Positions 6,664 to 48,568 of a stretch of DNA of 52,120 nucleotides are shown piece after piece. This stretch comes from Blastomonas sp. AAP53 (GTDB taxonomy: Bacteria > Pseudomonadota > Alphaproteobacteria > Sphingomonadales > Sphingomonadaceae). The stretch is taken from assembly GCF_000331245.1 (NCBI RefSeq), contig NZ_ANFZ01000012.1, forward strand, positions 1 to 52,120. Reading direction: 5' to 3'. The number at the start of each line of letters is the position of its first letter. Within the stretch, counting starts at the first letter, position 1. The position numbers and the translations under genes are program-made. The notes under the pieces were generated by a model. It was given only the letters and a program-made list of their open reading frames with translations. It did not search any database and was not told the origin of the DNA.

Positions 6664-7851
6664 TTACCCCTCCGCTTCGACCGCTCCGCTTGCCAGCAGC
6701 GCCTCGATCCGCGCCGCATCATAGCCCAGCCTCGACAGCACGCTTCTGGTATCCGCGCCCGCCTGCGGCAGCACCGCCTCGGCCGATGGCCGCGCGCCGT
6801 TCATCTCGATCGGCAGGCTGGGCAGCATCGTTGTGCTGCCATCGCTCAAGGTCACCGGTTCCAGCCCGCCACTGGCGAGCAGATGCGGATCGTCGAACAT
6901 GTCCTCGGGCCGACCGATCGGCGCGAAGGGCAAACCGGTGCCTTCGAGCTTGGCGATCAGGTCATCGCGCTTCCAGGTTTGCACCAGCGTGCGGATCTGC
7001 GGCATGATCCGCTCGCGCGCCAGCACGCGCGCGGTGTTCTCGCGGATGCTCTCGTCGGCCCAAAGATCGTCGAGCCCGAACAAGGCGCAGAACTTCTCCC
7101 ATAGCGCATCGGTGACCACGCCGATGAAGATCGGCTTGTCGTCGGCGGTCTCGAACACATCGTAGATCGCCCAGGCGCTGATCCGCGCGGGCATCGGCGC
7201 CGCCGGTTTTCCGGTCACTGCGAGTTGCGCCATATGCTGGCCGATCAGGTAGATCGTCGTTTCGAACAGCGAGCTTTGCACCTTCTGCCCACGCCCGGTG
7301 CGGTGCCGCTCCTCGACCGCTGCGAGGATCGCGATCACGCCGAACATGCCGCCGGTGACATCGATCACGCTCGATCCTGCGCGCAAGGGCCTGCCCGGCG
7401 GTCCGGTCATGTAGGCCAGCCCGCCCATCATCTGCGCGACCTCATCGAGCGCGGTGCGCTCTTCATAGGGGCCGGGAAGAAAGCCCTTCTCGCTGCAATA
7501 GATCAGGCGTTCGTTGGTGGCAGACAGCGCCTGATAGCCCAGCCCCAGCCGGTCCATCGCGCCGGGACGGTAGTTCTCGATCAGGATATCGGCGCTCGAT
7601 GCCAGATCGCGCGCCACCGCCAGCCCGTCCGCCGACTTCAGGTCGAGACAGATGCTCGCCTTGTGCCGGTTATACATTGGGAAATAGCCCGCGCCCGACC
7701 CGATCAGCCGCCGCGTCCGGTCACCACCGATCGGCTCGACGCGCACCACCTCGGCCCCCAGCGAGGCGAGGATCGCGCCCACTGCCGGGCCCATCACCAT
7801 GTGCGTGAACTCGACGACCTTGAGGTTCTTGAGCGGTTGCGGCCCGGTCAT
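6664..7851 (-). CDS. Class III (CaiB/BaiF) CoA-transferase
   Basis: The 395-residue protein has the family N-terminus (LKVVEFTHMVMGPAVGAILASLGAEVVRVEP) and the ENYRPGAMDRLGLGY motif. A region around ALDEVAQMMGGLAY supplies the catalytic Asp. Class III enzymes move CoA between carboxylic acids, for example formyl-CoA to oxalate or succinyl-CoA to citramalate. It is the last gene of operon A and overlaps the lyase gene by four bases (ATGA). That pairing suggests it makes the CoA ester which the lyase then cleaves. It is one of three family members in the window and is not closely similar to the other two. The substrate is unknown. Confidence 0.88.
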   Translation of the reverse strand: MTGPQPLKNLKVVEFTHMVMGPAVGAILASLGAEVVRVEPIGGDRTRRLIGSGAGYFPMYNRHKASICLDLKSADGLAVARDLASSADILIENYRPGAMDRLGLGYQALSATNERLIYCSEKGFLPGPYEERTALDEVAQMMGGLAYMTGPPGRPLRAGSSVIDVTGGMFGVIAILAAVEERHRTGRGQKVQSSLFETTIYLIGQHMAQLAVTGKPAAPMPARISAWAIYDVFETADDKPIFIGVVTDALWEKFCALFGLDDLWADESIRENTARVLARERIMPQIRTLVQTWKRDDLIAKLEGTGLPFAPIGRPEDMFDDPHLLASGGLEPVTLSDGSTTMLPSLPIEMNGARPSAEAVLPQAGADTRSVLSRLGYDAARIEALLASGAVEAEG

Positions 7852-8765
7852 GCCCGTTTCCTTTCAAAGCCGAGCGGCAGCCCCGCATCGGGGGTGAAGC
7901 CGTACAAGGGTTCGCCCGGCAGCGCCTCGGCGAGGATGCTGCGCACCGCAAGCAGCGCGTCGAGATCGATCCCGGTATCCACGCCCATCGCTTCGAGCAT
8001 GAACACCAGATCTTCGGTGACGATGTTGCCCGAAGCCCCTGGCGCGAACGGGCAACCGCCCAGCCCCCCCAGCGACGAATCGAGCGTGGTGATCCCCTCG
8101 TCGAGCCCCGCGAGCGCATTGGCAAGGCCTAGCCCGCGCGTGTTGTGCAGGTGGAGCGTCGTCATCTTGTCCGCGCCGACCTCGGCCTTCACCGCGCGCA
8201 CCAGCCGTCTGACCTGCGCGGGGTTGGCATAGCCGGTGGTGTCCGAGAGGCTGAACTCCTGCGCGCCGGCCTCAGCCGAGGCGACCGCCAGCCGCACCAC
8301 CTGCGCCTCGTCGACCGGACCTTCGATGGTGCAGCCGAACGCGGTCGACAGGCCCACGGCGAAGTGCACGCCGCCTGCCCGTGCCAGCCCCGCGATGGTC
8401 GCGATCTCTTCGAGCATCTGCGCATGGCTCTTGCGCACATTCTTCAGGCTGTGCGTTTCGGACATCGAGAACGGGATCGAGATGGCGTGCGCGCCCGCTT
8501 CGATCGCGCGTGCAGCGCCCTTGGCATTGGGGACGAGCGCGACGACGTTGAGCCCGGGGATGGTGCGCGCGAACGCCACGATCTCGGCGCTGTCGGCCAT
8601 CTGGGGCAGAAGCGACGGCGGCACGAAGCTGCCCACCTCGATCTCGCGCACGCCGGCGGCGGCTTCGGCTGCGATCCAGCGTTTCTTGGCTTCGGTCGGC
8701 ATCACGCGGTCGATGCTCTGCAGGCCATCGCGCGGGCCGACCTCGCTGATCAGCACGTCAGGCAT
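7848..8765 (-). CDS. Hydroxymethylglutaryl-CoA lyase family lyase
   Basis: This 305-residue DRE-TIM protein has EVGPRDGLQ at the N-terminus, with the catalytic Arg and metal-binding Asp. It also has HLHNTRGLGLAN and the active-site Cys loop GLGGCPFAPGASGN that is diagnostic of HMG-CoA lyases. These enzymes split 3-hydroxy-3-methylglutaryl-CoA, or related 3-hydroxy-3-substituted acyl-CoA, into acetyl-CoA and a 3-oxo acid. The ATG at 8765 has a GGAG seven bases upstream; the longer frame to 8825 lies inside the small-subunit gene and is less likely. Its place between an aconitase-type isomerase and a CoA-transferase suggests a substrate other than the leucine-degradation intermediate. Confidence 0.9.
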   Translation of the reverse strand: MPDVLISEVGPRDGLQSIDRVMPTEAKKRWIAAEAAAGVREIEVGSFVPPSLLPQMADSAEIVAFARTIPGLNVVALVPNAKGAARAIEAGAHAISIPFSMSETHSLKNVRKSHAQMLEEIATIAGLARAGGVHFAVGLSTAFGCTIEGPVDEAQVVRLAVASAEAGAQEFSLSDTTGYANPAQVRRLVRAVKAEVGADKMTTLHLHNTRGLGLANALAGLDEGITTLDSSLGGLGGCPFAPGASGNIVTEDLVFMLEAMGVDTGIDLDALLAVRSILAEALPGEPLYGFTPDAGLPLGFERKRA

Positions 8766-9369
8766 GGTTTTGCTCCAGATAGACCCAAGGCCGCTTGGCG
8801 CGGTCGGCAGTTTGGAAGGCGGCAATCGCCTCGCGGTGCTTGAATGTCAGATCGATGGCGTCGAGCCCTTCGAGCAGCATCGCCTTGGCTTCACCCTCGA
8901 TCTCGAACGACCAGACGCCCCCGTCGGCGCTGACGGTCTGCGCGGCCAGATCGACTTCGACCGCCTGCCCCGCCAGCTGCGCGATGACCTCGGGCGGCAG
9001 CACCACCGGCACGATGCCGTTGCGCACGCAATTGCTCTGGAAGATCGGCGCAAAGCTCTGCGCGATGATGCAGCGGATGCCATATTCGGCGAGCGCCCAG
9101 ACGGCATGCTCGCGGCTTGACCCGCAGCCGAAATTGCGCCCGCACAGCAGCAAGGTCGCCGCGCTGAATTGCGGCTGGTTGAGCACGAAATCGGGGTCGG
9201 GCGTGCGCGCCGCCGCATCGAGATAGCGCCAGCCAGCGAACAGCCCACCAGCCAGCCCGGTCTTGCCGGTGCTCTTCATCTCGCGCGAGGGGATCATCGC
9301 ATCGGTATCGATATTGTCGCGCAGCAACGGCGCGGCGATCGAGGTGAGCGTCGTGAAAGGTTCAGCCAC
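8758..9369 (-). CDS. Aconitase-family small subunit (LeuD-like)
   Basis: The 203-residue swivel-domain protein contains DNIDTDAMIPSREMKS, GRNFGCGSSREHAVWAL and AQSFAPIFQSNCVRNGIVPV. These are the signatures of small subunits of 3-isopropylmalate dehydratase and related hydro-lyases. I prefer the GTG start at 9369 because GGGAG lies seven bases upstream; an ATG at 9387 would add six residues. It overlaps the large-subunit gene by eight bases and the lyase gene by eight bases, so translation is coupled. With the large subunit it should form a heterodimer that isomerises or hydrates a branched di- or tricarboxylate. Leucine biosynthesis is unlikely given the neighbours. Confidence 0.88.
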   Translation of the reverse strand: MAEPFTTLTSIAAPLLRDNIDTDAMIPSREMKSTGKTGLAGGLFAGWRYLDAAARTPDPDFVLNQPQFSAATLLLCGRNFGCGSSREHAVWALAEYGIRCIIAQSFAPIFQSNCVRNGIVPVVLPPEVIAQLAGQAVEVDLAAQTVSADGGVWSFEIEGEAKAMLLEGLDAIDLTFKHREAIAAFQTADRAKRPWVYLEQNHA

Positions 9370-10738
9370 CGGCAAGCTCCCGCGCATCAGCGATGGCGCC
9401 TGCTATGGCGCTGGCGGCGACCGTCTCCGGGCTGGCGATATGCGTCTTCACGCGCAGCCCTTGGCGGCTTTCAAAGTTGCGGTTGGTCGATGAAATCACC
9501 CGCGATCCTTCGGCAAAGCTCTCGCCGCCGGCAAAGAAGCACATCGAACAGCCGCTCATCCGCCATTCGAAGCCCGCGTCGAGAAACACCTGGTCGAGCC
9601 CCTCGGCCTCGGCAGCGCGGCGCACCGCGCTTGAACCGGGGACGCAAATCGCGCGGATGCCTGGGGCGACCTTGCACCCCTTGAGCAAGGCTGCGGCGCG
9701 GCGCAGATCGGACAGGCGCGCGTTGGTGCAGCTGCCGATGAACGCGGCATCGATTGGGGTGCCGACTAGCGGCGCACCGGCGGTGAGCGCCATGTAATCG
9801 AGCATTGCGGAGGTCGCGTCCTCGGGGACGCTGCCCGTCACCGCCACGCTCGCCTGCGGGCTGGTGCCCCAGCTGACCATCGGAGCGATGCTGGCCGCGT
9901 CGATCTCGATCTCGGAATCGAACACGGCATCGGCGTCCGAACGCAAGTCCCGCCAACCGGCGCGCGCAGCATCCCAATGCGCACCCTTCGGCGCATAGCG
10001 ACGACCCTTGAGCCAATCAAAGGTCACATCATCGGGCGCGATCAGCCCAGCAAAGGCGGAAAACTCGGTCGCCATGTTGCACAGGGTCATCCGCGCTTCC
10101 ATGTCGAGCGCGGTCACGGCTTGCCCCGCAAACTCGACGACATGCCCTGCCCCGCCGCCCGCGCCATGCGCCGCGATCAAGGCCAGCATCATGTCCTTGG
10201 CCGTCACCCCCGGCGCGAGCGTGCCGGTGAACGTGACGCGCATCGTTTTGGGTCGGGTCAGCCGCAGCGTGCCGGTGGCCATCGCATGCTCGGCCTCGGA
10301 CGATCCGATCCCCCAGGCGAGCGCGCCCAGCGCCCCCTGCGTGCAGGTATGGCTGTCGGGCGCGATCAGCGTGAGGCCGGGCAGCACGATGCCGAGCTCC
10401 GGGCTGACCACATGCATGATGCCCTGATCGGGATCGCCGACATCGAACAATGTGATCCCCGCCGCCTGCGCTGCCGCACGGGTCTCGGTGATGAATGCCT
10501 GACCGCCGGGCATCAATGTCTGGTCGGTGCGGCCCGGCAGCGTATCGACGATATGGTCCATCATCGCGAACACGCGCGCCGGATCGGCGACCGTGCGCCC
10601 CGCCTCGGCGAGTGCATTGAGCGCCGCCGCCCCGGTGCGCTCGTGCAGCAGCACCCGGTCGATCGCGACCAGCGCCGCCCCGCCCGGAAGCGGGGCGACG
10701 ACATGGGCGTCCCAGATGCGATCAAACAGCGTGGTCAC
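9362..10738 (-). CDS. Aconitase-family large subunit (LeuC-like)
   Basis: The 458-residue protein has the family N-terminus (TLFDRIWDAHVV), PDSHTCTQGALGALAWGIGSSEAEHAMATG, the [4Fe-4S] Cys in GSCTNARLSDLRRAA, and the Cys pair in SGCSMCFFAGG. The length matches LeuC (about 466). It carries the iron-sulfur cluster and most of the active site of a hydro-lyase that moves a hydroxyl by dehydration and rehydration. The family also holds homoaconitase, dimethylmaleate hydratase and citraconate hydratase. The gene lies nine bases after the lipocalin-like gene within operon A. No leuA or leuB is present, which argues for a catabolic role on a substituted malate or citrate. The specific substrate is inference only. 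Confidence 0.88.
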   Translation of the reverse strand: MTTLFDRIWDAHVVAPLPGGAALVAIDRVLLHERTGAAALNALAEAGRTVADPARVFAMMDHIVDTLPGRTDQTLMPGGQAFITETRAAAQAAGITLFDVGDPDQGIMHVVSPELGIVLPGLTLIAPDSHTCTQGALGALAWGIGSSEAEHAMATGTLRLTRPKTMRVTFTGTLAPGVTAKDMMLALIAAHGAGGGAGHVVEFAGQAVTALDMEARMTLCNMATEFSAFAGLIAPDDVTFDWLKGRRYAPKGAHWDAARAGWRDLRSDADAVFDSEIEIDAASIAPMVSWGTSPQASVAVTGSVPEDATSAMLDYMALTAGAPLVGTPIDAAFIGSCTNARLSDLRRAAALLKGCKVAPGIRAICVPGSSAVRRAAEAEGLDQVFLDAGFEWRMSGCSMCFFAGGESFAEGSRVISSTNRNFESRQGLRVKTHIASPETVAASAIAGAIADARELAGG

Positions 10739-10747: not shown

Positions 10748-11245
10748 TTACGTGCTGGCGTTCATTTCTGCTTCGATCGCACGCCAGTCCTTGCTGACCA
10801 GAGTCTCCTGAATCGCGGTGCGCGTCTCGAGCAAGCCATTGCGGATCCAGTGCCAGGTGCGGCAGCGCGACTGTCCGTCGTCCGAAATCTGGATCATCTC
10901 GTACAGATACAGCGACGGATCGCCCTGGCGTTGCCAGTAGAGCATGATGGTGCGGCTGTATTCGTCGAGCCCAACTTCGGAGGCCCAGCCGACGATCAGC
11001 TCGTTGTCCCACCACACGCGCTTGTCGCGATATTCGGCCGGGAATTCGCGGATTTCCTTGCGGCCATCGGGCCAGGTATAATGGTTGGTCTGGTGATAGA
11101 GATACGGCCCTTCGTCGGGGAAACGGCACAGCAGACGGCTCTGGTGCTCGTCGATCTTCTCTCCGGCAGCATTGTAATAGGTATACACACCGTCCCACAC
11201 GCCTTCGTGCCGCGCCATGATCGGCATGTCCTCGCGAATACCCAT
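10748..11245 (-). CDS. Small lipocalin-like (DUF3598-type) protein, copy 1
   Basis: This 165-residue soluble protein has no signal peptide. It shows HEGVWDGVYTYYNAAGEKIDEHQSR, then Trp- and Tyr-rich strands (NHYTWPDGRKEIREFP, RVWWDNELIVGWASE), and ends with MIQISDDGQSRCRTWHWIRNG. It is clearly paralogous to the protein at 16625-17095, with the same order of motifs including MIQISDDG-SR-RTW-W-R-G. The beta-rich pattern suggests a lipocalin-like barrel of DUF3598 type that binds a hydrophobic ligand, but this assignment is tentative. It sits between the hydrolase and the large-subunit gene with 12- and 9-base gaps, so it belongs to operon A. It may be a binding protein or a small enzyme of the pathway. 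Confidence 0.6.
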   Translation of the reverse strand: MGIREDMPIMARHEGVWDGVYTYYNAAGEKIDEHQSRLLCRFPDEGPYLYHQTNHYTWPDGRKEIREFPAEYRDKRVWWDNELIVGWASEVGLDEYSRTIMLYWQRQGDPSLYLYEMIQISDDGQSRCRTWHWIRNGLLETRTAIQETLVSKDWRAIEAEMNAST

Positions 11246-11257: not shown

Positions 11258-12631
11258 TTATTGACCAATGATCGCCTGATAATATGCCCGCGCCGCTGTC
11301 GCTCGCAGCAATGCGCGATGTTCGCCTGCCAGACATTCCGGCGTGATCTCCACCGGGTCGAAGGGAACTGCATTGGCAGCCGCCACCGCATGATGCGGCG
11401 CAAAGAAATGCCGCGCGCGCACGATCTGCCACGCGCGCACCAGATGCGTGCCGTAGCGATCGGCTGACAGGTCGGGGAACAGCAGCGCCGGATCGCCTTG
11501 CGGCACCTTGGGCAATCGCACCTCGGCCGCTCCGAAATGGCCTGCAATGGCATCGATCACCCGCTGCCATGGCGCCCAGTCGGTGGGCGCTGCGCCCGCC
11601 CAGCCATCGGACAGGCCATGGCCGGGAAGATCGATGGCAAGCGCGCCTGTTGTATCGCGTTGCAATTCCTCGCCGGGACCATGCACGACGAGCACACCTG
11701 ACGCAGGATCGCCCTGCCAGTGGATCAGCCCGGAAAACTCCGGCGTTTCGATGGCGACAAAGCCCGCATCGGCACTCTGTTGCGGAACGACGATATCGCC
11801 CTGCGCCAGACCCTGCAGGAATGCGAGGCTGAGCGCCTGATGATCGGCAGGCGTCGCGCACCGTTCCGCGCGCCAGCGTGCCGGCATGTCGCCCAGCCGG
11901 TCCAGATGCGCCTGCAGCGGATCGCCATCATAGGCGCTGATCAGCACCGGCGGCGTCACCGCATCGGGCGGCGGAATGTCGCGGGGCGCGCGCAGCACTG
12001 CGCCATAGCCTGCGCGATAGGCGCTGCCGGCATCGAGCATCTCGCGCACCGCCATGTCGACGCGCGCGACATCGGCATGCGCACCGGGCAGCCGCGCGGC
12101 ATCGCGGGTATCGAACCAGGGGAAGAACCAGCTCTGTTCCATCATCCGGTTCCACAGCCAGACCAGATGCTCGCCATAAGCCGCCGGTTCGAACGGCGGC
12201 AGATAGGACTGCCCGAACAGCGCCATCTCCTGCGGCGTCCAGATGGCATAGCCGCCGATGGCAAGGCCGGTAAACCGCTGCGGGTGCCGCTTGAGCGCGG
12301 TCACCAGAATGATGCCGCCCGAATGAAAGCCATAAGCCGGACACGGCGTCAGCCCCAGCGCATCCATTGTGGCCACCAGCGCATCAGCGAAATCATCGAT
12401 CTCGGGCTCGCCGGGCAGCGGATCGGACTGGCCGAAACCCGGCGTATCGGGCGCGATGCAGGTGAAGTGCGCAGCCCAGCGTTCCATCAGCGGGGCATAT
12501 TCGCCGCTGTTGCGCGGGCTCTGGTGGATCATCAGCAGCGGCGGCCCACTGCCCGCCTGTCGGTAATGCACGCGGCGGCGCTGGCCGTCTGGCTGCGCTA
12601 CGTCAACATAATGGCGAGTGATGAGAGTCAT
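11258..12631 (-). CDS. Alpha/beta hydrolase, 457 residues, possibly two-domain
   Basis: The N-terminal half is a standard alpha/beta hydrolase: oxyanion region LLMIHQSPRNSGEYAPLM, PDTPGFGQSDP, then the nucleophile elbow GFHSGG with Ser104. The elbow differs from the usual GxSxG, since position -2 is Phe. After about residue 280 comes a second strand set, VLVVHGPGEEL and LAIDLPGHGLSDGW, which looks like the start of another alpha/beta hydrolase domain without an obvious elbow. Family members are usually near 280-300 residues, so this may be a fusion with a degenerate copy. The ATG lies only five bases from the operator palindrome and has GAGG almost touching it, so its mRNA may be nearly leaderless. 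It is the first gene of operon A; an ester, lactone or C-C bond is the likely target. Confidence 0.8.
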   Translation of the reverse strand: MTLITRHYVDVAQPDGQRRRVHYRQAGSGPPLLMIHQSPRNSGEYAPLMERWAAHFTCIAPDTPGFGQSDPLPGEPEIDDFADALVATMDALGLTPCPAYGFHSGGIILVTALKRHPQRFTGLAIGGYAIWTPQEMALFGQSYLPPFEPAAYGEHLVWLWNRMMEQSWFFPWFDTRDAARLPGAHADVARVDMAVREMLDAGSAYRAGYGAVLRAPRDIPPPDAVTPPVLISAYDGDPLQAHLDRLGDMPARWRAERCATPADHQALSLAFLQGLAQGDIVVPQQSADAGFVAIETPEFSGLIHWQGDPASGVLVVHGPGEELQRDTTGALAIDLPGHGLSDGWAGAAPTDWAPWQRVIDAIAGHFGAAEVRLPKVPQGDPALLFPDLSADRYGTHLVRAWQIVRARHFFAPHHAVAAANAVPFDPVEITPECLAGEHRALLRATAARAYYQAIIGQ

Positions 12632-12713: not shown

Positions 12714-13394
12714 ATGGAGATTGTCGGCACCCGGATGATCCGCGAGGACAAGACCGCGCGCGAACTGTTCGAGGCGGTGATGGCCAATCCGGCGCGCAAC
12801 AAGTTCGGCTTCGGGCAAAAGCTCGCCATCGTGAATGTCGATGTGCAGCAGGCCTATACCCGGATCGACATGTTCAAGACCGCGTACGAGACCGACCCCC
12901 GGCAGATCGAGCATATCAACACGATCTCGCGGCTCGCGCGCGAAAAGGGCATGCCGGTGATCTGGAGCCGCGTCGCCTACAAGGACGATGCCGCCGACGC
13001 CGGGGTCTGGGGCACTCGCACCGACACCCCCGACAGCCTGCAGAACATCCGCTATGACAGCGAACGCCACGCCTATGACCCGCGCTGCGAGTTCGGCGAA
13101 AACGACCTGCATTATACCAAGCGGATGCCGAGCGCGTTCTTCGAGACGCCGCTCGCGAGCTATCTCAACTTCCACCGCGTCGATACCGTGGTCGTCACCG
13201 GCGGCAGCACCTCGGGCTGCGTCCGCGCGACGGCGGTCGATGCGCTGAGCCACGGCTATCGCACCATCGTCCCGATCGAGACCTGCGCCGACAAGCACGA
13301 GAGCTATCACTTCGCCAACTTGACCGACCTGCAGCTGAAATATGCCGATGTCGAACCGGTGCAGACAGTGATCGAATGGCTGGAGGGGAAGTGA
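12714..13394 (+). CDS. Isochorismatase-family cysteine hydrolase
   Basis: The 226-residue protein has the family triad: Asp43 in AIVNVDVQQAYT, Lys136 in HYTKRMPSAFF and Cys169 in GGSTSGCVRATAVDA, the last with the cis-peptide loop. The nucleophilic Cys marks the amidohydrolase branch (N-carbamoylsarcosine amidase, ureidoacrylate amidase, nicotinamidase, maleamate amidase) rather than the aryl-ether isochorismatases. The ATG at 12714 is preceded by GGAGGA; the frame further up crosses the operator and is not used. It is the first gene of operon B and its stop overlaps the next start. It probably hydrolyses an amide or carbamoyl group freed by the two following PuuE-type hydrolases. Confidence 0.9.
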   Translation: MEIVGTRMIREDKTARELFEAVMANPARNKFGFGQKLAIVNVDVQQAYTRIDMFKTAYETDPRQIEHINTISRLAREKGMPVIWSRVAYKDDAADAGVWGTRTDTPDSLQNIRYDSERHAYDPRCEFGENDLHYTKRMPSAFFETPLASYLNFHRVDTVVVTGGSTSGCVRATAVDALSHGYRTIVPIETCADKHESYHFANLTDLQLKYADVEPVQTVIEWLEGK

Positions 13395-16628: not shown

Positions 16629-17095
16629 GAGACACGCTTACCAACGCCATGCCCGCGCTGTTCGCGCACGAGGGGCTGTGGGACGGCACCTATCGCCATA
16701 TCGATGCAGAGGGCCAGCTAATCGACCAGCACCGCATGCGCACTCGCTGCGAATTTCCCGCGACAGGCGAATTTGCCTATATCCAGCACAACCACCTGAT
16801 CTGGCCCGATGGCCGCGAGCAACGCTTGAGCTTTGGCGGCGTGTTCCGCGATGGACGGCTGTGGTGGGATACTGACCGCTTCCATGGCCACGGCTGGGAG
16901 ACGCTCGACAACGTGCTGATGCTCACCCTGCACCGCAAGGACGATCCGGGCGTGCGCTTTACCGAGATGATCCAGATTTCCGATGATGGCGAATCGCGCG
17001 CGCGCACCTGGCAGTGGTTTCGCGATGGCACGCCGTTCAAGCGGACCTTGTGCGATGAAAGGCGCGTCTCGCGCGATCCGGAGGCTGAACTGTGA
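16625..17095 (+). CDS. Small lipocalin-like (DUF3598-type) protein, copy 2
   Basis: This 156-residue paralog of the protein at 10748-11245 shows HEGLWDGTYRHIDAEGQLIDQHRMR, HLIWPDGREQRLSFGG, LWWDTDRF and MIQISDDGESRARTWQWFRDG. No signal peptide or metal motif is obvious. It overlaps the aldehyde dehydrogenase gene by four bases. One copy in each arm of the divergent operons A and B suggests that the two proteins act on related ligands, or together. The function is unknown; a beta-barrel ligand binder or small isomerase is possible. Confidence 0.6.
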   Translation: MRDTLTNAMPALFAHEGLWDGTYRHIDAEGQLIDQHRMRTRCEFPATGEFAYIQHNHLIWPDGREQRLSFGGVFRDGRLWWDTDRFHGHGWETLDNVLMLTLHRKDDPGVRFTEMIQISDDGESRARTWQWFRDGTPFKRTLCDERRVSRDPEAEL

Positions 17096-18472: not shown

Positions 18473-18473
18473 G

Positions 18474-22450: not shown

Positions 22451-22470
22451 TTCATTCTCCGTTGGAAAGG

Positions 22471-37709: not shown

Positions 37710-37750
37710 CGCGTGCTCCTGCTCCAGGTTCGCTCTGCGGATTTCGGTGC

Positions 37751-41768: not shown

Positions 41769-41785
41769 AGTCTACCTATCTTGCT

Positions 41786-41889: not shown

Positions 41890-41892
41890 AGC

Positions 41893-43053
41893 GTGACTCT
41901 CGATCCCTTCAACGCACTCGTCGAACGCGCACCCGATACGCTACCGGCGACCGGCCCTCTCGCCGGCATCACCATCGGCGTGAAGGCCAATATTGCCGTC
42001 TCCGGGATGCACTGGACCGCCGGCATGGCGCTGTTCCGCGACCGCATCGCCAAACAGGATGCCGAGGTTGTGGCCAGACTGCGAGCCGCAGGCGCCAGCA
42101 TCACCGGCGTGCTCAACATGGAGGAAGCCGCTTTAGGCGCGAAGACAGACAACCCCTGGTTCGGCGCGACGCACAATCCGCACTCGCCCGGCCACACCCC
42201 CGGCGGCTCGTCGGGCGGCAGCGGGGCTGCCGTGGCGGCAGGGCTGTGCGATGCGGCGCTCGGCACCGACACGATGGGATCGATCCGCATCCCGGCGGCC
42301 TATTGCGGCGTCTATGGCTTCAAGCCCGCGCCCGGCCGTGTCAGCCAGCACGGGCTCGAGCTTGCCGAACCCGGCTTCGACGCAATCGGCCCGCTCGCAC
42401 GCTCGCTCGACCTGCTCGAACGTGTCGCGCGCGTTATCTCGGACGTTGGCGATGAAGAACCCCCGCAAGGCTGCGCGACGCTCGCCGACCTTGGCGGTGT
42501 CGAATGCGACGCAAGCGTGCTGCAAGGCTTCGACGCCGCAAAAGCCGCGATGGGCGAGGTCGCCGAATTCACCCTGCCCCATCCACTCGCGCGCGTCCGC
42601 TTTGCCGGTTTCATCCGGACGGTGCGCTTCATGGCCGCGCAGTTTGCCGATGCCGACCCGGCGCTGTTGTCCGATCACCTCAAACGCCTGATCGCTTATG
42701 GCCCGCGTCGGTCGGATGTCGATTGGGCCGAGGACCAGCGCATCCTCGCTGAGACCGCCGACGCACTGCAGGCGGCGCTGGCCCGCCACGGCACCTTGCT
42801 GTTGCCCACTGCGCCGCAGACCGCCTTTGCGCACTCTGCAACAGCGCCTGCCAACCAGGCCGATTTCACCTGCCTCGCCAATGTCGCAGGCCTGCCCGCG
42901 CTCAGCCTGCCTGCGGGCATGAGTGCCGAGGGCCTGCCCATCGGCGTGCAGCTGATCGGCTTGCCCGGTCAGGAAACCGCATTGTTCGCCCGCGCCCGCA
43001 TGCTCGACACTGCGCTCGCCGGCTATCATCCGCCCGTTGCCCACAAGGAGTAA
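41893..43053 (+). CDS. Amidase-signature family hydrolase
   Basis: The 386-residue protein has the Ser-cisSer-Lys triad: Lys in ITIGVKANIAVSG, the cis-Ser loop GHTPGGSSGGSGAAVAAG, and the nucleophile in LGTDTMGSIRIPAAYCGVYGFKP. It is shorter than usual (about 450-500) because the central helical insertion is reduced, as in AtzF- or GatA-like small forms. It should cleave a carboxamide. The GTG start is preceded at once by GGAGGGG supplied by the repeat. It may act with the PuuE-type and isochorismatase-type hydrolases on nitrogen groups of the substrate. Confidence 0.9.
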   Translation: MTLDPFNALVERAPDTLPATGPLAGITIGVKANIAVSGMHWTAGMALFRDRIAKQDAEVVARLRAAGASITGVLNMEEAALGAKTDNPWFGATHNPHSPGHTPGGSSGGSGAAVAAGLCDAALGTDTMGSIRIPAAYCGVYGFKPAPGRVSQHGLELAEPGFDAIGPLARSLDLLERVARVISDVGDEEPPQGCATLADLGGVECDASVLQGFDAAKAAMGEVAEFTLPHPLARVRFAGFIRTVRFMAAQFADADPALLSDHLKRLIAYGPRRSDVDWAEDQRILAETADALQAALARHGTLLLPTAPQTAFAHSATAPANQADFTCLANVAGLPALSLPAGMSAEGLPIGVQLIGLPGQETALFARARMLDTALAGYHPPVAHKE

Positions 43054-43058
43054 CCCCC

Positions 43059-43364
43059 ATGAAGATCATCGTGCTGTTCAACCTGAAGCCCGGCGTTTCG
43101 GCATCCGATTACGAGGCATGGGCGCGCACCCGCGACATTCCGGGGGTCAATGCGCTGTCCTCGGTCAGCAGCTTCACCGTCCACCGCGCGACCGGGCTGT
43201 TCGGATCGGATGCCGCCTCGCCATATGACTATGTCGAGATCATCGACATCACCGGCATGGATCCGTTCGTGGCCGATATCAGCACGCCCGAGTTCCAGGC
43301 GATGGCCGCGCCGTTCCAGGATTATGCCGACAACCCGCAGTTCATCCTCACCGAGGACCTGTGA
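43059..43364 (+). CDS. RedY/HapK-like dimeric alpha/beta-barrel protein
   Basis: This small 101-residue protein reads MKIIVLFNLKPGVSASDYEAWARTRDIPGVNALSSVSSF, with YDYVEIIDITGMDPFVADISTPEFQAMAAPFQDYADNPQFILTEDL after it. This is the pattern of REDY-like proteins, including HapK, known from prodigiosin-type loci. The ferredoxin-like fold forms dimers with a small active-site pocket. It lies five bases after the amidase gene and one base overlaps the SDR start. The role in this pathway is unknown; a small isomerase, cyclase or monooxygenase is possible. Confidence 0.65.
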   Translation: MKIIVLFNLKPGVSASDYEAWARTRDIPGVNALSSVSSFTVHRATGLFGSDAASPYDYVEIIDITGMDPFVADISTPEFQAMAAPFQDYADNPQFILTEDL

Positions 43365-44161
43365 TGCGCCGCTTCGCAGGCAAGACGATCGTCGTTACCG
43401 GCTCGGGCAAGCACAAGGGGCTGGGCCAAGCGATCCTGCAGCGCTTTGCAGATGAAGGCGCAAACTGCGTGCTCTCCGACCTCGTCATCGACGCCGAGGC
43501 CGATGAGGTCGCGGAAGACCTGCGCGGGCGCGGCGCGAAGGTCGAGGCGATCGCGTGCAATGTCGCCAAGGTGGACGAGTGCCGCGCGCTGGTCGATGGC
43601 GCGGTCGCTACGTTCGGATCGGTCGATGTCTTCGTCAACAATGCCGGGATCGGCTTCATGATGAAGCCGCTGCTCGATGTCGATCCGGCCGATTGGGACC
43701 AGGTGCTTTCCGTCAACCTGTCGGGCGCGTTCTACTGCACGCAGGCCGCCGCCAAGGCGATGATCGCAGGGGGGCGCGGCGGGCGGATCATCAACATCGC
43801 CAGCCAGGCCGCCAAGACCGGCTTTCCGCACCTGCCCGCCTATGTCAGCTCCAAGCACGGCATGGTCGGGCTGACGCGCGCGAGCGCGGTGGAACTCGGC
43901 GCGCACGGCATCACCGTCAACGCGGTCTGCCCCAACCATGTCACCACGGGCCTGGGCGCACAGCAGAACGAATATTTCTCCAAGCTCCTGGGCTTCGCCA
44001 GTGTCGAGGCGTATCTCGCCAACATGAAGGCGAAGAACCCGATGGGACGCCCGGGCCTGGCCAGCGACACCGCGTCTGCTTGCGCGTGGCTGGCGAGCGA
44101 CGATAGTTTTTACATAACCGGCGAGGCGCTCAACGTGAGCGGCGGCGAGGAGATGCATTGA
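43364..44161 (+). CDS. Short-chain dehydrogenase/reductase
   Basis: The 265-residue SDR has the cofactor loop VVTGSGKHKGLGQAI, one residue longer than the classical TGxxxGxG. NNAGIGF, IINIASQ with the catalytic Ser, YVSSKHGMVGLTRA with Tyr and Lys, and GEALNVSGGEEMH also fit the family. DLVID after strand 2 points to NAD(H). I take the ATG at 43364 (AGGA six bases away) over the GTG directly before it. In operon E it would oxidise a 3-hydroxyacyl-CoA or another secondary alcohol. Confidence 0.92.
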   Translation: MRRFAGKTIVVTGSGKHKGLGQAILQRFADEGANCVLSDLVIDAEADEVAEDLRGRGAKVEAIACNVAKVDECRALVDGAVATFGSVDVFVNNAGIGFMMKPLLDVDPADWDQVLSVNLSGAFYCTQAAAKAMIAGGRGGRIINIASQAAKTGFPHLPAYVSSKHGMVGLTRASAVELGAHGITVNAVCPNHVTTGLGAQQNEYFSKLLGFASVEAYLANMKAKNPMGRPGLASDTASACAWLASDDSFYITGEALNVSGGEEMH

Positions 44162-44162
44162 G

Positions 44163-45029
44163 ATGATCGAAGAGCGAATGGACTGGCCGAACGGCGCGAA
44201 GATGGCCTTGAGCGTCGTCGTCAATGTCGAGGAAGGCAGCGAGATGACGATCGCGCGCGGCGACCGGGGGATGGAGCCGGTCGACGAGCTGGGCGTGTTC
44301 GTGAAGTCCGCCATCCGCAACTATGGCAACGAGAGCAACTATCTCTACGGGATCAAGGCGGGCGCGCCGCGCGTGGTCAAACTGCTCAAGCGCTATGACA
44401 TCCTGGCGAGCTGGACCGTGGCCGCGATGGCGCTCGAGAACCATCCCGAGATTGCTGAGGCCATCGTCGAGCTGGGCCACGAGCCGGTCAGCCATGGCTG
44501 GCGCTGGGTGCACCAGTTCAAGATGGACGAGGCGACCGAGCGCGAGTTCATCCAGAAAGCGGTCGCATCGATCGAGAAGACCACCGGCACGCGGCCCTAT
44601 GGCTGGCTGTCGCGCTATCTGCACACCGACAACACCCGCCGCCTGCTGAGTGAGGCGGGGTTTGAATACCATATGGACGACTACTCAGGCGATATTCCCT
44701 ATTGGGACACCGCGACGGTGCCCGGCAAACCGATGGTCATCATGCCCTATCAGCTCGATACCAACGACATGAAGATGTGGACCGACCCGGCGATGACGCC
44801 GAACCAATGGCTCGATTACGCGGTGCGCTGCTTCGATCAGGTCTATGCCGAAGGCGAGGAGGGCAATCCCAAGATGATGTCGCTGGGGCTGCACCTGCGC
44901 ATCATCGGCCGGCCGGGCCGCATCTGGGCGCTCGAGGAGTTCTTCCGCCATGTCCGCAGCAAGCCTGATGTGTGGGTGACGACACGCCGCGCCATCGCCA
45001 GCCACTTCGCTGCAACGGTGCCAGCGTGA
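44163..45029 (+). CDS. PuuE-like NodB-fold hydrolase 3
   Basis: This 288-residue protein is closer to PuuE allantoinase than the two copies in operon B. It has ALSVVVNVEEGSEMTIARGD, AGAPRVVKLLKRYDILASWTVAAMALENHPEIAEAIVELGHEPVSHGWRWVHQFKMDE, and RPYGWLSRYLHTDNTRRLLSEAGFEYHMDDYSGDIPYWD. The SHGWRW motif replaces the zinc-binding HxxxH of NodB. There is no signal peptide. PuuE opens the allantoin ring and related proteins open cyclic imides, so a cyclic amide or ureide ring is a reasonable substrate guess. The ATG lies one base after the SDR stop. Confidence 0.82.
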   Translation: MIEERMDWPNGAKMALSVVVNVEEGSEMTIARGDRGMEPVDELGVFVKSAIRNYGNESNYLYGIKAGAPRVVKLLKRYDILASWTVAAMALENHPEIAEAIVELGHEPVSHGWRWVHQFKMDEATEREFIQKAVASIEKTTGTRPYGWLSRYLHTDNTRRLLSEAGFEYHMDDYSGDIPYWDTATVPGKPMVIMPYQLDTNDMKMWTDPAMTPNQWLDYAVRCFDQVYAEGEEGNPKMMSLGLHLRIIGRPGRIWALEEFFRHVRSKPDVWVTTRRAIASHFAATVPA

Positions 45030-45048
45030 GGGGGTTCGCGATATCCTC

Positions 45049-45209: not shown

Positions 45210-45213
45210 AGAT

Positions 45214-45975
45214 GTGACCCTCTCCCTCACCCTCGATGGGGCAATCGCGCACCTCGTCATCGACCGGCCCGACAAGCGCAATGCCTTCACTCAAGCGATG
45301 TGGGAGGCGCTGCCCGGCCTGATCGACCAGGCGATGATCAACCCCGATGTGCGCGTGATGATCCTGCGCGCGAGTACGCCAGGGGCGTTCTGCGCCGGGG
45401 CGGACATCGCCGAGTTCGGGGCGGGCGCGCAGGATCCCGATTGGCGCATCCGCAACCAGGCCGCGATCCGCCGCGCGATGGAGACGCTCGCGCGCGCGCC
45501 CAAGCCGGTGATCGCACAGATCGAGGGCGATTGCATCGGCGGCGGCTGCGGACTGTCGCTCGCCTGCGATTTTCGCATCGCGACATCGGCCGCGCGGTTC
45601 GGCATCACGCCGGCCAAGCTTGGCCTCGTCTATTCGCTGCACGATACCAAGCTGCTGGTCGATCTGGTCGGCCCCTCGGCGGCCAAGCGCATCCTGTTCA
45701 CCGCTGGGCTGGTCGACGCCAGCGAGGCGTTCCGCATCGGCCTGATCGACGAGATCGCCGACGATGCAGCTGCCGCCGCCGGGGCGCTCGCGGCGCAGAT
45801 CGCCAGCGTCTCGCCGCACAGCGTGCGCGCGAGCAAGGCGATGATTGCGCGCATCGTGCACGGCCAGGCAGAGGATGACCCCAATACGCTCGCGCAGTTC
45901 GCCGATGCCTTTGACGGCCCCGATTTCCGCGAAGGGGTCAAAGCGTTTCTGGGCAAGCGCAAACCGGAGTTCTGA
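45214..45975 (+). CDS. Enoyl-CoA hydratase/isomerase family protein
   Basis: This 253-residue crotonase-fold protein has IDRPDKRNAFTQAMWEAL, SAFCAGADI-type text (GAFCAGADIAEFGAG) and QIEGDCIGGGCGLSLACDFRIATSAARFGITPAKLGLVYS. The first oxyanion loop and GGGCGLSL are intact. The usual second Glu region reads KLGLVYSLHDTK, so a hydratase, isomerase or hydrolase outcome cannot be decided. The GTG at 45214 is set by the repeat-derived GGGAG. It lies five bases before the alpha/beta hydrolase gene. Confidence 0.88.
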   Translation: MTLSLTLDGAIAHLVIDRPDKRNAFTQAMWEALPGLIDQAMINPDVRVMILRASTPGAFCAGADIAEFGAGAQDPDWRIRNQAAIRRAMETLARAPKPVIAQIEGDCIGGGCGLSLACDFRIATSAARFGITPAKLGLVYSLHDTKLLVDLVGPSAAKRILFTAGLVDASEAFRIGLIDEIADDAAAAAGALAAQIASVSPHSVRASKAMIARIVHGQAEDDPNTLAQFADAFDGPDFREGVKAFLGKRKPEF

Positions 45976-45979
45976 GGCG

Positions 45980-46858
45980 ATGGCTGAGACCCTCCCCGTC
46001 CGCCGCCACTATGTCGATGGCCCGTTCGGCCAGTTACATGTCCGCGAATCGGGCACGGCCAGCGCATACAGGGCCAGCCTCGCCTGCTTCCACATGAGCC
46101 CGATGACCGGACGCACATTCGAAGCGTTCATGGGCGTGCTGGCAGCGATTAGCGGCAGGCATGTGCTGGCGTTCGACACGCCGGGCTTCGGCATGTCCGA
46201 CGCGCCGCCCAATGCGCCATCGATCGCCGATTATGCCGACGCGCTGCTGGCGGGAATCGCCGCGTGCGGCGTCACCGGGCCTGTTGACCTGATGGGCTAT
46301 CACACCGGATCGATGATCGCCTGCCAGCTGGCGGCGGAGCATCCCGATCTCGTGCGACGGCTGGTGCTGATCTCCGCCCCGGTGTTCAGCGCAGACGATC
46401 TCGCCGCGATGCGCGCCGAGTACCAGCATCGCGCACCGCAAGCCGATGGCAGCCACATCCTGCACCGCTGGCAGCGCTTCCACCATCATTTTGCAGCGGG
46501 CGGCCTGTCGCTCGACGCGATCAACGCGGCGTTCCCCGACGGGCTGATGGGCCGTAATATCGAGCATTGGGGCCATGATGCCGCGTTCGGCTTCGTCCCC
46601 GGCATGCGGCTCGAAGAGGTCACCCAGCCGGTGCTGCTGCTGAACCCTGAGGATGATCTGCGCGACCATAGCATGCCAGCGCCCGCGCTGCTCAAGCACG
46701 CGCGCATGGTCATGCTCGATGGCTGGGGCCATGGTTTTCTCGACCTGCATGCGCTGGAAGCTGCAGCCCTGGTCGAGAGCTTCCTTGGCGCATCTGCCGA
46801 CCCCTTTGGCGCATTGGCCTTGCCCGAATGCGCCAATGCCCCCGTCCTGTCTGCCTAA
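45980..46858 (+). CDS. Alpha/beta hydrolase 2
   Basis: This 292-residue single-domain protein has LACFHMSPMTGRTFEAFM (oxyanion region), LAFDTPGFGMSDAP, and the elbow VDLMGYHTGSMIACQLAAEHPD. Here the nucleophile position holds Thr, or the neighbouring Ser two residues on. The acid is probably in LLLNPEDDLRD and the base in GWGHGFLD. The elbow G-Y-H-T-G-S parallels G-F-H-S-G-G in the hydrolase of operon A, so the two belong to one subgroup. The ATG lies four bases after the hydratase stop. An ester, lactone or carbon-carbon substrate is possible. Confidence 0.83.
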   Translation: MAETLPVRRHYVDGPFGQLHVRESGTASAYRASLACFHMSPMTGRTFEAFMGVLAAISGRHVLAFDTPGFGMSDAPPNAPSIADYADALLAGIAACGVTGPVDLMGYHTGSMIACQLAAEHPDLVRRLVLISAPVFSADDLAAMRAEYQHRAPQADGSHILHRWQRFHHHFAAGGLSLDAINAAFPDGLMGRNIEHWGHDAAFGFVPGMRLEEVTQPVLLLNPEDDLRDHSMPAPALLKHARMVMLDGWGHGFLDLHALEAAALVESFLGASADPFGALALPECANAPVLSA

Positions 46859-46874
46859 CCCGAAAGGTCCGATC

Positions 46875-47783
46875 ATGTCGCATCACCTGAAGCACGGAAC
46901 GATCATGGGCGGCGTTGTCGTCACGCCCGACCTCACCGCCTCGCTCGCCGATTATCAGGGGCGGCTGGGGCTCGATCTGGTCGAGCAAGGCCCGCTGCCC
47001 GCCGATCTCGCCGCCGCCTGGGGCTGCCCGGAAAGCGCAGGCGCGCCTTATGCGATGCTGCGCCCGACCAGCGGCGCGCATTGCTTCATCCGGCTGGTCG
47101 AGCAGGCAGACCACCCCGATTTCCGTCCGACGCGCACCTATGGCTGGGCGGCCTATGAGCTGACCGTCAAGGATGTGTTCGGCTGGCCCGATCGGCTCGA
47201 CGGCAGCGGCTTTCGCGTCATCGGCCCGCCCAGGGAGATTGCAGGCCTGCCCTATTTCATCCCGATGCAGGTGCTGGGGCGCGGCGACGAGATGATCTAT
47301 CTCAACGAGGTGGCAATGGACACGCCCTCGTCAGACCTGCCCAAGGCGCAGAGCCTTACCGACCATATCTTCATCGTCATCCTCGCAGCGCAGGACCGCA
47401 TGGCCTCGGTCGACTGGTACCGCCACGCGCTGCGGCTCGATGAGGGCGAGAGCTACACGCTCGAATACACGATGATCAATGCGGCGTTCGGCAAGCCTGC
47501 AGGCACGCAGTCAGTCATCACCATGGTGCAGAACGAGCGGCTGCCGATCCTCGAGATCGACGATTACCCCGCAGAGGCGACCGAGCGGCCTGCCCATCTC
47601 GGCATGCTGCCGCCGGGCAACGCGCTGGTGACGCTGGCAGTCGAGAGCTTTGAAGACCTCGATGTCGAATTCATTACGCCCCCGGTATTGCGCCATGGCG
47701 ACCTGTACATGGGCAACATGGCAGCAACGGTGCGCGGCCCCTCGGGTGAACTGGTCGAGCTGATCGAGACCGGGCTGTCCTGA
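46875..47783 (+). CDS. VOC-superfamily (glyoxalase/dioxygenase fold) protein
   Basis: The 302-residue protein contains two or more betaalphabetabetabeta repeats: GTIMGGVVVTPDLTASLADYQGRLGLDLVEQGP, then LTDHIFIVILAAQDRMASVDWYRHALRLDEGESYTLEY. It ends VRGPSGELVELIETG. The first repeat lacks the His metal ligand near the start (HGTIMGG has one His just before), and the second has TDHIFIV. A Glu at the end (ELVELIE) could ligand a metal. The length suggests an extradiol-dioxygenase- or epimerase-like protein. GAAAGG precedes the ATG, and the stop overlaps the next start. Confidence 0.72.
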   Translation: MSHHLKHGTIMGGVVVTPDLTASLADYQGRLGLDLVEQGPLPADLAAAWGCPESAGAPYAMLRPTSGAHCFIRLVEQADHPDFRPTRTYGWAAYELTVKDVFGWPDRLDGSGFRVIGPPREIAGLPYFIPMQVLGRGDEMIYLNEVAMDTPSSDLPKAQSLTDHIFIVILAAQDRMASVDWYRHALRLDEGESYTLEYTMINAAFGKPAGTQSVITMVQNERLPILEIDDYPAEATERPAHLGMLPPGNALVTLAVESFEDLDVEFITPPVLRHGDLYMGNMAATVRGPSGELVELIETGLS

Positions 47784-48568
47784 TGCGGATCGGGCTGATC
47801 GGAACGCCGCACAATCCGCTGGTGCTTGGCGGGCCTGCGCCCGAGCTGGCGGCGCTGTTTCCCGGTGTCGAACTGATCGCGTTCCCCTCGCGCGTGCCGG
47901 CCTTCCCTTATACCCCGCTCGAACAGGCGATGCAGGCGCTGGGCCATGCCGAAGCTGCGTTGACCGCCGCCGAGCAGGGCTGCGAGAGGCTCGTGATCGA
48001 CAGCGTCGGCGATTATGGCCTTGCCGCGATGCGCGCGATGCTGCCCATTCCGGTGGTGGGATCAGGCGAGGCGGGCCTCGCCAAGGCGGCGCGCGGCGGA
48101 CGCCCGTTCGGCATCGTCAGCGTGTGGCCCGAATCGATGAACTTCATCCTTACAGAACGGCTGCAGGCGTGCGGCGTCACCGGATCGTGCGTTGGTATCG
48201 TCAATGTCGGCGAGGATGCCGACACTGAACTGCTCTCCGGCCCGGATGGCTATCTCTCGCAGGTCCGTGAAGGTCGCGCGGCGGTGGTCGGCAAGGTGTT
48301 GGCAGGCGTGACAGACCTCGCGGCGCGCGGTGCAGAGGCGGTTCTGCTGGGCTGCACGTGCATGTCGGGCATGGCCGATACGATTGCGAGCGCCGCCAGC
48401 GTACCCATCGTCAATCCGCTCGCCGCCGGGGTGCGCGCCGCTCTGGCCGCTCCGCCGCTCACCCAGGTTCCGCAGACCCGCGACGGCCGTCCGGCCCTGC
48501 TCCGCGCGATGGTGGACGCAGTGGCAGGCGAGGTGGCCGAAGACTGCCCGGTGTGCATCGCCTCCTGA
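47783..48568 (+). CDS. Asp/Glu racemase-fold protein with one catalytic Cys
   Basis: The 261-residue protein has the family frame: MRIGLIGTPHNPLVLGG, RLVIDSVGDYGLAAMR and AVLLGCTCMSGMADTI. Racemases use two Cys. Here the first position reads Ser74 in DSVGDYGL, where the family has Cys (CFGDPGL type), and the second is Cys191 in LGCTC. A single Cys is the state of arylmalonate decarboxylase, which has Gly at 74 and Cys at 188. Decarboxylation of a disubstituted malonate or a lyase reaction is therefore more likely than racemisation. It is the last gene of operon E, followed by a hairpin. Confidence 0.78.
   Translation: MRIGLIGTPHNPLVLGGPAPELAALFPGVELIAFPSRVPAFPYTPLEQAMQALGHAEAALTAAEQGCERLVIDSVGDYGLAAMRAMLPIPVVGSGEAGLAKAARGGRPFGIVSVWPESMNFILTERLQACGVTGSCVGIVNVGEDADTELLSGPDGYLSQVREGRAAVVGKVLAGVTDLAARGAEAVLLGCTCMSGMADTIASAASVPIVNPLAAGVRAALAAPPLTQVPQTRDGRPALLRAMVDAVAGEVAEDCPVCIAS

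Follow-up and report, generated by a model that had tools for sequence, protein, structure and literature searches.

Which compound is degraded by the genes at 6664-48568 of contig NZ_ANFZ01000012.1 from Blastomonas sp. AAP53, and do these genes form one system? The stretch analysed, referred to as the window (52,120 nucleotides; contig C12 of an assembly of 28 contigs and 3.6 Mb), had been interpreted in a preliminary description as carrying one large catabolic cluster for a branched, amide-containing compound. The proteins of the window were scanned against Pfam and NCBIfam; all coordinates are window positions. Each gene named in that description was found with a family match, including its decarboxylase candidate, a protein of the Asp/Glu-racemase family (47783-48568) that could be a decarboxylase. 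Beyond that list, the run holds genes for a MaoC hydratase, an acyl-CoA dehydrogenase, an aldehyde dehydrogenase, an FAD oxidase, a nitrilase-fold protein, a methyltransferase-like protein, an MFS transporter, a GntR regulator, an SDR oxidoreductase, an enoyl-CoA hydratase, a VOC-fold protein, a HapK/REDY-like protein and two DUF3598-like proteins.

The locus is best read as nested modules of one catabolic system, with a mobile core and accessory blocks that are found almost only together with it. The core is made up of an isochorismatase-family protein (ISO), the PuuE-type proteins PuuEa and PuuEb, a LeuC/LeuD pair (LeuCD), the CoA-transferase CaiB1 and an HMG-CoA lyase:

6664..7851, minus strand, CaiB1, class III CoA-transferase (PF02515, 4e-102)
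7848..8765, minus strand, HMG-CoA-lyase family protein (NF004283, 280.5 bits, cut-off 246)
8758..9387, minus strand, LeuD-like small subunit (NF002458, above cut-off)
9362..10738, minus strand, LeuC-like large subunit (PF00330, 3.7e-148; NF009116, above cut-off)
12714..13394, plus strand, ISO, isochorismatase-family amidohydrolase (PF00857)
13394..14287, plus strand, PuuEa (PF01522; TIGR03212, 107 bits)
14284..15207, plus strand, PuuEb, active-site pattern partly altered (PF01522; TIGR03212, 108 bits)

The association of these genes was followed through 249 genomes of the family. PuuEa was matched at E ≤ 1e-30 in 51 genomes; five with only 30-35% PuuE matches were left out, so that the count rests on 46 genomes with 58-100% identity. 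The cluster HMG lyase was present in 43 genomes, all of them among these 46 (Fisher 4e-45). Three genomes with PuuEa lack this lyase: G022 (67% complete), G082 (66% complete) and G121. The PaaK-type CoA ligase of the right-hand block occurred in 30 genomes, 29 of which have PuuEa (exception, G226; Fisher against PuuEa 8e-25). FADox, the FAD oxidase of the middle block, was counted at an identity of at least 50%, leaving out 15 of 40 genomes with only lower matches; all 25 genomes counted carry both PuuEa and PaaK (Fisher against PuuEa 5e-22). None of the Fisher values given here takes account of the shared ancestry of the genomes. Within the genus, G095, G207 and G246 have PuuEa, the HMG lyase, PaaK and FADox, and G001 and G157 have none of the four.

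Proximity (60 kb) was checked for those 29 of the 46 genomes in which PuuEa and PaaK occur together. PuuEa lies less than 60 kb from the HMG lyase in 24 of them and from PaaK in 18; FADox is within this distance in 19 of the 25 genomes that have it. One unlinked case, G246, may reflect a contig break. As the blocks co-occur also where they are not neighbours, the association holds without proximity, and the blocks belong together more than expected by chance. In the congener G095, the gene order from CaiB1 to the conserved gene u216 (6664-31302) is kept with 74-97% identity, a HipA-like gene excepted. In this genome, PaaK is situated some 32 kb downstream of PuuEa; the stretch compared stops before the right-hand block. 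The idea of one large cluster thus survives as a single catabolic system, on the strength of the gene order in G095 and of the co-occurrence, but not as one pathway, since a core and accessory blocks can be told apart.

The core was also traced gene by gene. In 30 neighbourhoods of about 35-40 kb read by tblastn, PuuEb was near PuuEa in all 30, and ISO adjoined the PuuE pair in 26 (exceptions, G121, G236b, G173 and G038). A second comparison covered 80 loci taken from genome records, many of them shortened by contig ends and two without a called open reading frame (ORF), with gene families defined as single-linkage clusters at 45% identity. PuuEa and PuuEb were each recovered in 71 loci, ISO in 70, the HMG lyase in 55, CaiB1 in 47, LeuC in 46 and LeuD in 44. 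PuuEa and PuuEb were direct neighbours in 67 of the 80 loci, and ISO, PuuEa and PuuEb were consecutive in 62.

PuuEa was also counted in wider samples, and the core is found as a unit on plasmids. In the order, 41 of 246 genomes (family included; E ≤ 1e-80) have PuuEa, and in the phylum 10 of 398 (E ≤ 1e-70; our genome and one family member included). Twenty distant or plasmid loci were compared by tblastn (E ≤ 1e-12), with 20 kb read for L202, L204 and L205. The combination of ISO and two PuuE genes with LeuCD, CaiB and the HMG lyase is carried by pJE1 of Sphingomonas sp. JE1, by pTomTYG65b and by a conjugative plasmid of Acidiphilium multivorum JZ-6, on which the core adjoins transposase genes and is accompanied by LeuCD, a porin and an FAD oxidoreductase. 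In L204, from another class of the phylum, genes for HapK, SDR, PuuEc, CitE, MaoC, acyl-CoA dehydrogenase, CaiB2 and CaiB3 stand beside ISO-PuuE-PuuE. On plasmid pTM2 of Tistrella mobilis, GntR and PrpD lie side by side with an amidase and a ligase of 59% identity. These two arrangements mark the wider set as a recurring unit. One close PuuEa relative (86%; L097) comes from a bin labelled as Verrucomicrobiota, where it sits on a contig of 3.1 kb, and may be mis-binned.

What would the core do? We tentatively propose, with somewhat less than even confidence, that it opens, deamidates, hydrates and cleaves an imide of the alkyl-maleimide or alkyl-succinimide type, that the right-hand block handles a second branched acid, and that the middle block serves uptake and oxidation. 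Every reaction in this scheme is inferred from protein families. The PuuEa/PuuEb pair would open the cyclic imide, and ISO would take off the remaining amide nitrogen as ammonia, leaving a vicinal cis-dicarboxylate. The LeuC/LeuD hydratase would add water to give a 2-alkyl- or 2,3-dialkylmalate, CaiB1 would form its CoA ester, and the HMG-CoA-lyase protein would split the ester, releasing an acyl-CoA and a 2-oxo acid; with methyl as the alkyl substituent, the latter would be pyruvate. The LeuCD family requires two vicinal carboxylates in the cis form. Opening and deamidation of a maleimide would yield such a cis-dicarboxylate directly, so that chemical logic favours a five-membered imide, whereas a six-membered imide would give a LeuCD substrate only with an extra carboxyl group.

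The motifs expected of these families are largely in place. Motif counts rest on our own ORF calls, some of them truncated. In the HMG lyase, PRDGLQ, HLHNT and GGLGGCP..GN are present in the alignment with PDB structures, and HLHNT is retained in 79 of 79 relatives. Both iron-sulphur motifs of LeuC, GSCTN and GCSMC, occur in the translation, and with them the two subunits belong to the 3-isopropylmalate dehydratase family; of the 73 members of the LeuC cluster, which includes paralogues, 72 have GSCTN and 55 have GCSMC. SGC[VI]R is kept in 92 of 92 ISO relatives, and the SHG and PLH motifs of PuuEa in 90 of 90. The nearest named matches of PuuEa are Blastomonas records (95 and 94%). HpPgdA (3qbu), which matches PuuEa at 1e-7, is named as a structural homologue of HxnM in the available passages of PMC9304392; according to the same passages, PuuE relatives include cyclic imidases, namely HxnM and a Pseudomonas putida enzyme. 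A role of the cluster LeuCD and HMG lyase in leucine biosynthesis or catabolism was considered and is unlikely because paralogues exist elsewhere in the genome. Two more LeuC-like genes are found on contigs C18 (50%) and C5 (49%), so that the cluster LeuC is not the only one. An HMG lyase paralogue of 41% identity is a candidate for the HMG-CoA lyase proper of leucine catabolism.

The cleaving enzyme appears to be exchangeable. L202 and L205, which belong to a single family of a different class within the phylum, carry ISO, PuuEa, PuuEb and LeuCD together with a lyase of the phosphoenolpyruvate mutase/PrpB type and an FAD protein of the fumarate-reductase/TcuA type; within the 20 kb read, tblastn showed neither an HMG lyase nor a CaiB gene. 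Plasmid p1 of Burkholderia plantarii resembles these loci, with CaiB farther away. A second, related cluster is present in the Blastomonas genome itself, on contig C5 at about 14.8-43.5 kb (L182-L184). Besides a further PuuE and a PrpB-type lyase, it encodes another LeuCD and another FAD oxidase, together with two flavin monooxygenases, a TonB-receptor-like protein and an AMDase/EutA-like protein. The solved structures nearest to the C5 lyase are the petal death protein 4iqd (8.5e-49), methylisocitrate lyase and 2,3-dimethylmalate lyase (7e-43); in NCBIfam it comes closest to PrpB (245 bits, below the cut-off of 354). It was found in 16 of the 249 family genomes, 13 of which have PuuEa (Fisher 2e-8). 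As the same hydratase is combined with two non-homologous cleaving systems, the intermediate would be an alkylmalate-type tertiary 2-hydroxy acid.

The right-hand block (31478-48568) consists of the following genes:

31478..32323, plus strand, CitE/RipC(Ccl)-like lyase (NF038242, 207 bits (206.9), cut-off 375)
32313..32825, plus strand, MaoC, RipB(Ich)-like hydratase (NF038241, 241.5 bits, cut-off 340)
32904..34082, plus strand, acyl-CoA dehydrogenase (PF00441 and others)
34579..35781, plus strand, CaiB2 CoA-transferase (PF02515)
35785..36873, plus strand, CaiB3 CoA-transferase (PF02515)
36882..37709, minus strand, GntR/UTRA regulator (PF00392, PF07702)
37751..39091, plus strand, PrpD1 (PF03972; family motifs kept)
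39088..40392, plus strand, PrpD2 (PF03972; family motifs lost)
40389..41768, plus strand, PaaK-type CoA ligase (TIGR02155, 154 bits, cut-off 646)
41893..43053, plus strand, amidase-signature amidase (PF01425)
43059..43364, plus strand, HapK/REDY-like protein (PF11639, 4e-13)
43364..44161, plus strand, SDR oxidoreductase (PF13561)
44163..45029, plus strand, PuuEc (TIGR03212, 248.7 bits, cut-off 424.6)
45214..45975, plus strand, enoyl-CoA hydratase (PF00378)
45980..46858, plus strand, alpha/beta hydrolase 2 (PF00561)
46875..47783, plus strand, VOC-fold protein (PF00903)
47783..48568, plus strand, Asp/Glu/hydantoin-racemase family protein, first Cys = Ser (PF01177; aligned to 3qvj)

This block would process a second branched acid by a route like that for itaconate and methylsuccinate, with CoA-transferases, acyl-CoA dehydrogenase, MaoC hydratase, CitE lyase and PrpD isomerase, and its ligase, amidase and further hydrolases may prepare that acid. 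An itaconate-methylsuccinate cluster has been described for Pseudomonas aeruginosa and Cupriavidus necator, in which, in the passages available, a PrpD protein is the methylsuccinate isomerase and the dehydrogenase is a methylsuccinyl-CoA dehydrogenase (PMC12290011; PMC9875883). That cluster (PA0878-PA0886 in P. aeruginosa) has in common with the window an ich-type hydratase, an acyl-CoA dehydrogenase, MmgE/PrpD, a class III CoA-transferase and a CitE-type lyase; the families of ich, mcd, mmgE/PrpD, ict and ccl are all represented at 31478-40392 (MaoC, acyl-CoA dehydrogenase, two PrpD, CaiB2/3 and CitE). The best solved match of MaoC is the beta-methylmalyl-CoA dehydratase 8hgn, and PrpD1 retains the HPTST and TKxMH motifs in the alignment. 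In contrast to the described cluster, the window has two CoA-transferases, two PrpD proteins and RipB and RipC scores below cut-off, adds ligase, amidase, PuuE, SDR, HapK-like, VOC and racemase-family genes, and is tied to the imide core by co-occurrence. Its VOC protein counts 302 residues, compared with 127 for PA0880 in the excerpt of PMC9875883. Plain itaconate degradation was rejected as the full answer, as it leaves the core and middle blocks over and RipB and RipC stay below cut-off. The preliminary claim that no described pathway has this gene set accordingly stands for the core, for which no description was found in the literature searched, but not for the right-hand block, which matches the cluster just named.

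Some further features of this block were noted. A DUF559 (endonuclease-like) gene at 34193-34582 lies inside the CoA-transferase operon, nearly framed by and overlapping inverted repeats of 62 bases (34099-34160 and 34499-34560, 84%), and resembles a small mobile element. Palindromic GC-rich repeats occur at 38801-38897 and 41869-41889; both sites were found on both strands, and shuffled sequences lead one to expect none. The copies at 38801-38897 lie within the PrpD1 frame and are seemingly translated, and the one at 41869-41889 precedes the amidase gene.

The middle block would take up and oxidise a larger substrate (21363-30480), and it is followed by the conserved u216:

21363..22091, minus strand, u242, beta-barrel, nearest solved fold DUF1849 (6ntr, E 4e-7; model with a predicted local distance difference test (pLDDT) score of 91.9)
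22091..22474, minus strand, u127, small protein paired with the methyltransferase-like protein (no Pfam match; conserved pair)
22471..23682, minus strand, S-adenosylmethionine methyltransferase-like protein (PF13649)
23847..24986, minus strand, nitrilase-fold protein, Ser replacing the catalytic Cys (PF00795)
24993..26558, minus strand, FADox, VAO/GlcD-type FAD oxidase (PF01565; PDB neighbours)
26555..27862, minus strand, MFS transporter (PF07690)
27970..30480, minus strand, TonB-dependent receptor (PF00593, PF07715)
30652..31302, plus strand, u216, conserved (no Pfam match; conserved neighbour)

The presence of a TonB receptor suggests a larger substrate. All 43 relatives of the nitrilase-fold protein have Ser where the catalytic Cys is expected, the position being set by eye from the YPE motif, and the protein is perhaps a binding protein or a different catalyst. 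Its N-terminus looks twin-arginine-like by eye. Diverged paralogues of the methyltransferase-like and small-protein pair (22091-23682) occur in several of these clusters, and the pair may have a shared, unrecognised role.

Several observations count against the imide scheme and its unity. Besides the ancestry issue mentioned above, L204 has the right-hand set with no LeuCD found in the 20 kb read, and the loci L201, L206, L207 and L210 show the trio or the PuuE pair with no LeuCD or lyase nearby, L206 and L207 without a recognised ISO either; the PuuE pair may thus serve more than one ring. The C5-type lyase lies in 3 of its 16 genomes without PuuEa. The TIGR03212 scores of PuuEa, PuuEb and PuuEc (107, 108 and 249 bits) are all far under the cut-off of this allantoinase PuuE family (424.6), and an imidase function is argued from the family. 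PuuEb aligns Thr to the second His, mostly with a His two residues earlier, and PrpD2 lacks HPTST and TKxMH in the alignment, so that its active-site pattern is altered. As a speculation, PuuEa/PuuEb and PrpD1/PrpD2 could each be a heteromer with one altered partner. The RipB, RipC and PaaK scores are all under the curated cut-offs, with none of the three RipC-like matches in the genome above it, and the right-hand substrates may therefore differ from itaconate. Finally, the solved relatives nearest to ISO act on ureides, hydantoinase genes lie close to the core in some genomes, and a distant PuuE pair (44 and 38% identity) stands beside a Mo-hydroxylase in Arthrobacter crystallopoietes; with such neighbours, six-membered rings or hydantoins would fit as well.

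A six-membered ring is unlikely. The substrate would be a 2,6-dihydroxypyridine (glutaconimide tautomer) with a carboxyl group, from which the PuuE pair would form an aconitamide-like acid and ISO would remove nitrogen; LeuCD would act as aconitase, and CaiB with the HMG-type lyase would cleave a citryl-CoA-like ester. Together with the Arthrobacter locus, the aromatic-hydroxylase-type flavin monooxygenases of the C5 cluster agree with this route, as does the fungal imidase HxnM, which acts on a six-membered imide in the passages available (PMC9304392). Plain aconitate, however, would need no dedicated lyase to reach the citric acid cycle, a Mo-hydroxylase is not among the scanned window proteins, and the PrpB-type and HMG-type lyases indicate a tertiary alcohol. 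Quite unlikely is a ureide, in which PuuE would open a hydantoin- or allantoin-like ring and ISO would hydrolyse the N-carbamoyl product. Allantoinase is among the solved relatives of PuuE, the N-carbamoylsarcosine amidohydrolases 26st and 1nba are nearest to ISO, the genes next to the core in some genomes encode hydantoinase A/B, and the racemase-family protein aligns with hydantoin racemase 3qvj; yet an amino acid product would not lead to LeuCD and an alkylmalate-type lyase, and LeuCD or the lyase accompanies the trio in most neighbourhoods read.

The genes could also be ordinary neighbours, with one operon for itaconate/methylsuccinate and one for an imide next to unrelated genes and no substrate in common. 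PuuEa does occur without PaaK (17 of 46 genomes) and PaaK without PuuEa (1 of 30). This explanation is nevertheless improbable: the nested co-occurrence persists where the blocks are unlinked, and L204 repeats the right-hand set from HapK to CaiB3 beside ISO-PuuE-PuuE. Moreover, the HipA gene (18982-20316), which lies inside the run but is not part of the system, was matched in only 3 of 105 genomes, our own included, in a control sample smaller than the family set, with no match in G095. Biosynthesis of a maleimide- or pyrrole-like natural product is highly improbable. HapK/REDY-like and methyltransferase-like families are known from biosynthesis, and both are present here; however, a TonB receptor, hydrolases and CoA-dependent lyases predominate, and an assembly-line or condensing enzyme is not among the scanned proteins. 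The alkyl-substituted five-membered imide remains our preferred substrate type, and the branched dicarboxylate chemistry and the cyclic-imide-like nitrogen step of the preliminary description both find support, with the reactions assigned by family.

How does the proposed route compare with known systems? The methylcitrate cycle ends with aconitase and PrpB, and nicotinate fermenters use a dimethylmaleate hydratase and a dimethylmalate lyase. In both, a hydratase of the aconitase family likewise acts first and a tertiary 2-hydroxy acid is then cleaved, and some relatives have a PrpB-like lyase; the window, in contrast, uses CaiB and HMG-CoA lyase, fed by imide-type hydrolases. The route of cyclic imide hydrolase and half-amidase (P. 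putida YZ-26 imidase; fungal HxnM-HxnN) also starts with a PuuE-related opener followed by an amidase, as far as the passages available go (PMC9304392), whereas the window has tandem PuuE paralogues, an isochorismatase-type amidase and a continuation by LeuCD and a lyase. The lumichrome/riboflavin cluster of Nocardioides, seen in excerpts, is likewise large and serves a nitrogen heterocycle; it was rejected, as the scanned window proteins include none of its P450, thiamin-dependent decarboxylase, xanthine-oxidase-type or Rieske enzymes.

No description of the core was found in the open-access literature, searched by titles and abstract beginnings among the matches listed, with subscription papers and preprints outside the search. 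Within this scope, the matches listed for isonicotinate and citrazinate looked irrelevant, those for REDY/HapK held nothing usable, and those for dimethylmalate and petal death proteins contained none on this pathway by title and abstract beginning. Among the papers listed for JZ-6, pJE1 and TomTYG65, only one, on tomato saponin, had a title that dealt with one of these strains, and it mentions neither isochorismatase nor isopropylmalate. The individual enzyme families are known; their combination, nesting and spread look new.

The remaining genes flank the core or lie between the left and middle blocks:

10748..11245, minus strand, DUF3598-like calycin-fold protein a (PF12204, 21.6 bits, cut-off 22)
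11258..12532, minus strand, alpha/beta hydrolase 1 (PF00561), in a longer ORF whose start may be upstream, as far as 12631
15204..16628, plus strand, aldehyde dehydrogenase (PF00171)
16625..17095, plus strand, DUF3598-like protein b (no Pfam match; groups with protein a)
17095..17559, plus strand, DUF1330 protein (PF07045)

A RES/Xre toxin-antitoxin pair and the HipA-like gene follow at 17556-20316; the RES/Xre pair is retained at the same place in G095, G246 and G207.

Where could such imides come from? Pyrrole rings of tetrapyrroles yield 2,3-dialkylmaleimides, namely methylethyl- and methylvinylmaleimide and haematinic imide. That the system degrades tetrapyrrole-derived material such as bilins or chlorophyll or haem fragments is rather unlikely, given that no gene for opening a tetrapyrrole was recognised in the window. 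Such an origin, with varied side chains, would explain several PuuE/amidase sets and the presence, in a single genome, of as many as three different ways to cleave a dicarboxylate (CaiB with HMG lyase; CitE; LeuCD with the PrpB/petal-death-type lyase on C5), and uptake of larger molecules would suit tetrapyrrole remains. It would also explain calycin-fold proteins with bilin-lyase folds among their best structural matches. The DUF3598-like model (28 sequences; pLDDT 94.5) matched Ycf58 (3.4e-6), BFA1 and the CpeS phycobiliprotein lyase (2.3e-5), and further a DUF3598 structure and nitrobindins (about 3e-3). As all identities are 10-14% and the fold binds many ligands, these matches lend the tetrapyrrole origin weak support and need to be viewed with care. 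Bacteria have been reported to convert porphyrins to single-pyrrole products, in passages that give no gene cluster (PMC8669743), and a directed literature search revealed no such cluster among the matches listed, by title and abstract beginning.

We know of no earlier genetic route for mineralising the monopyrrole leftovers of the commonest pigments, and the tetrapyrrole origin, if true, would make this the first. If the substrate is a pigment breakdown product, a gap in the carbon fate of chlorophyll, haem and bilins would close. PuuEa and the cluster HMG lyase are found together in 43 of the 249 family genomes sampled (about 17%), and PuuEa and some of the core genes extend to other classes and to plasmids, which argues for an uncharacterised nutrient route that is common. 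This route would link the release of imide-type nitrogen with a hydratase of the aconitase type and a lyase that can be exchanged, and may be a source of enzymes for branched dicarboxylates and cyclic imides.

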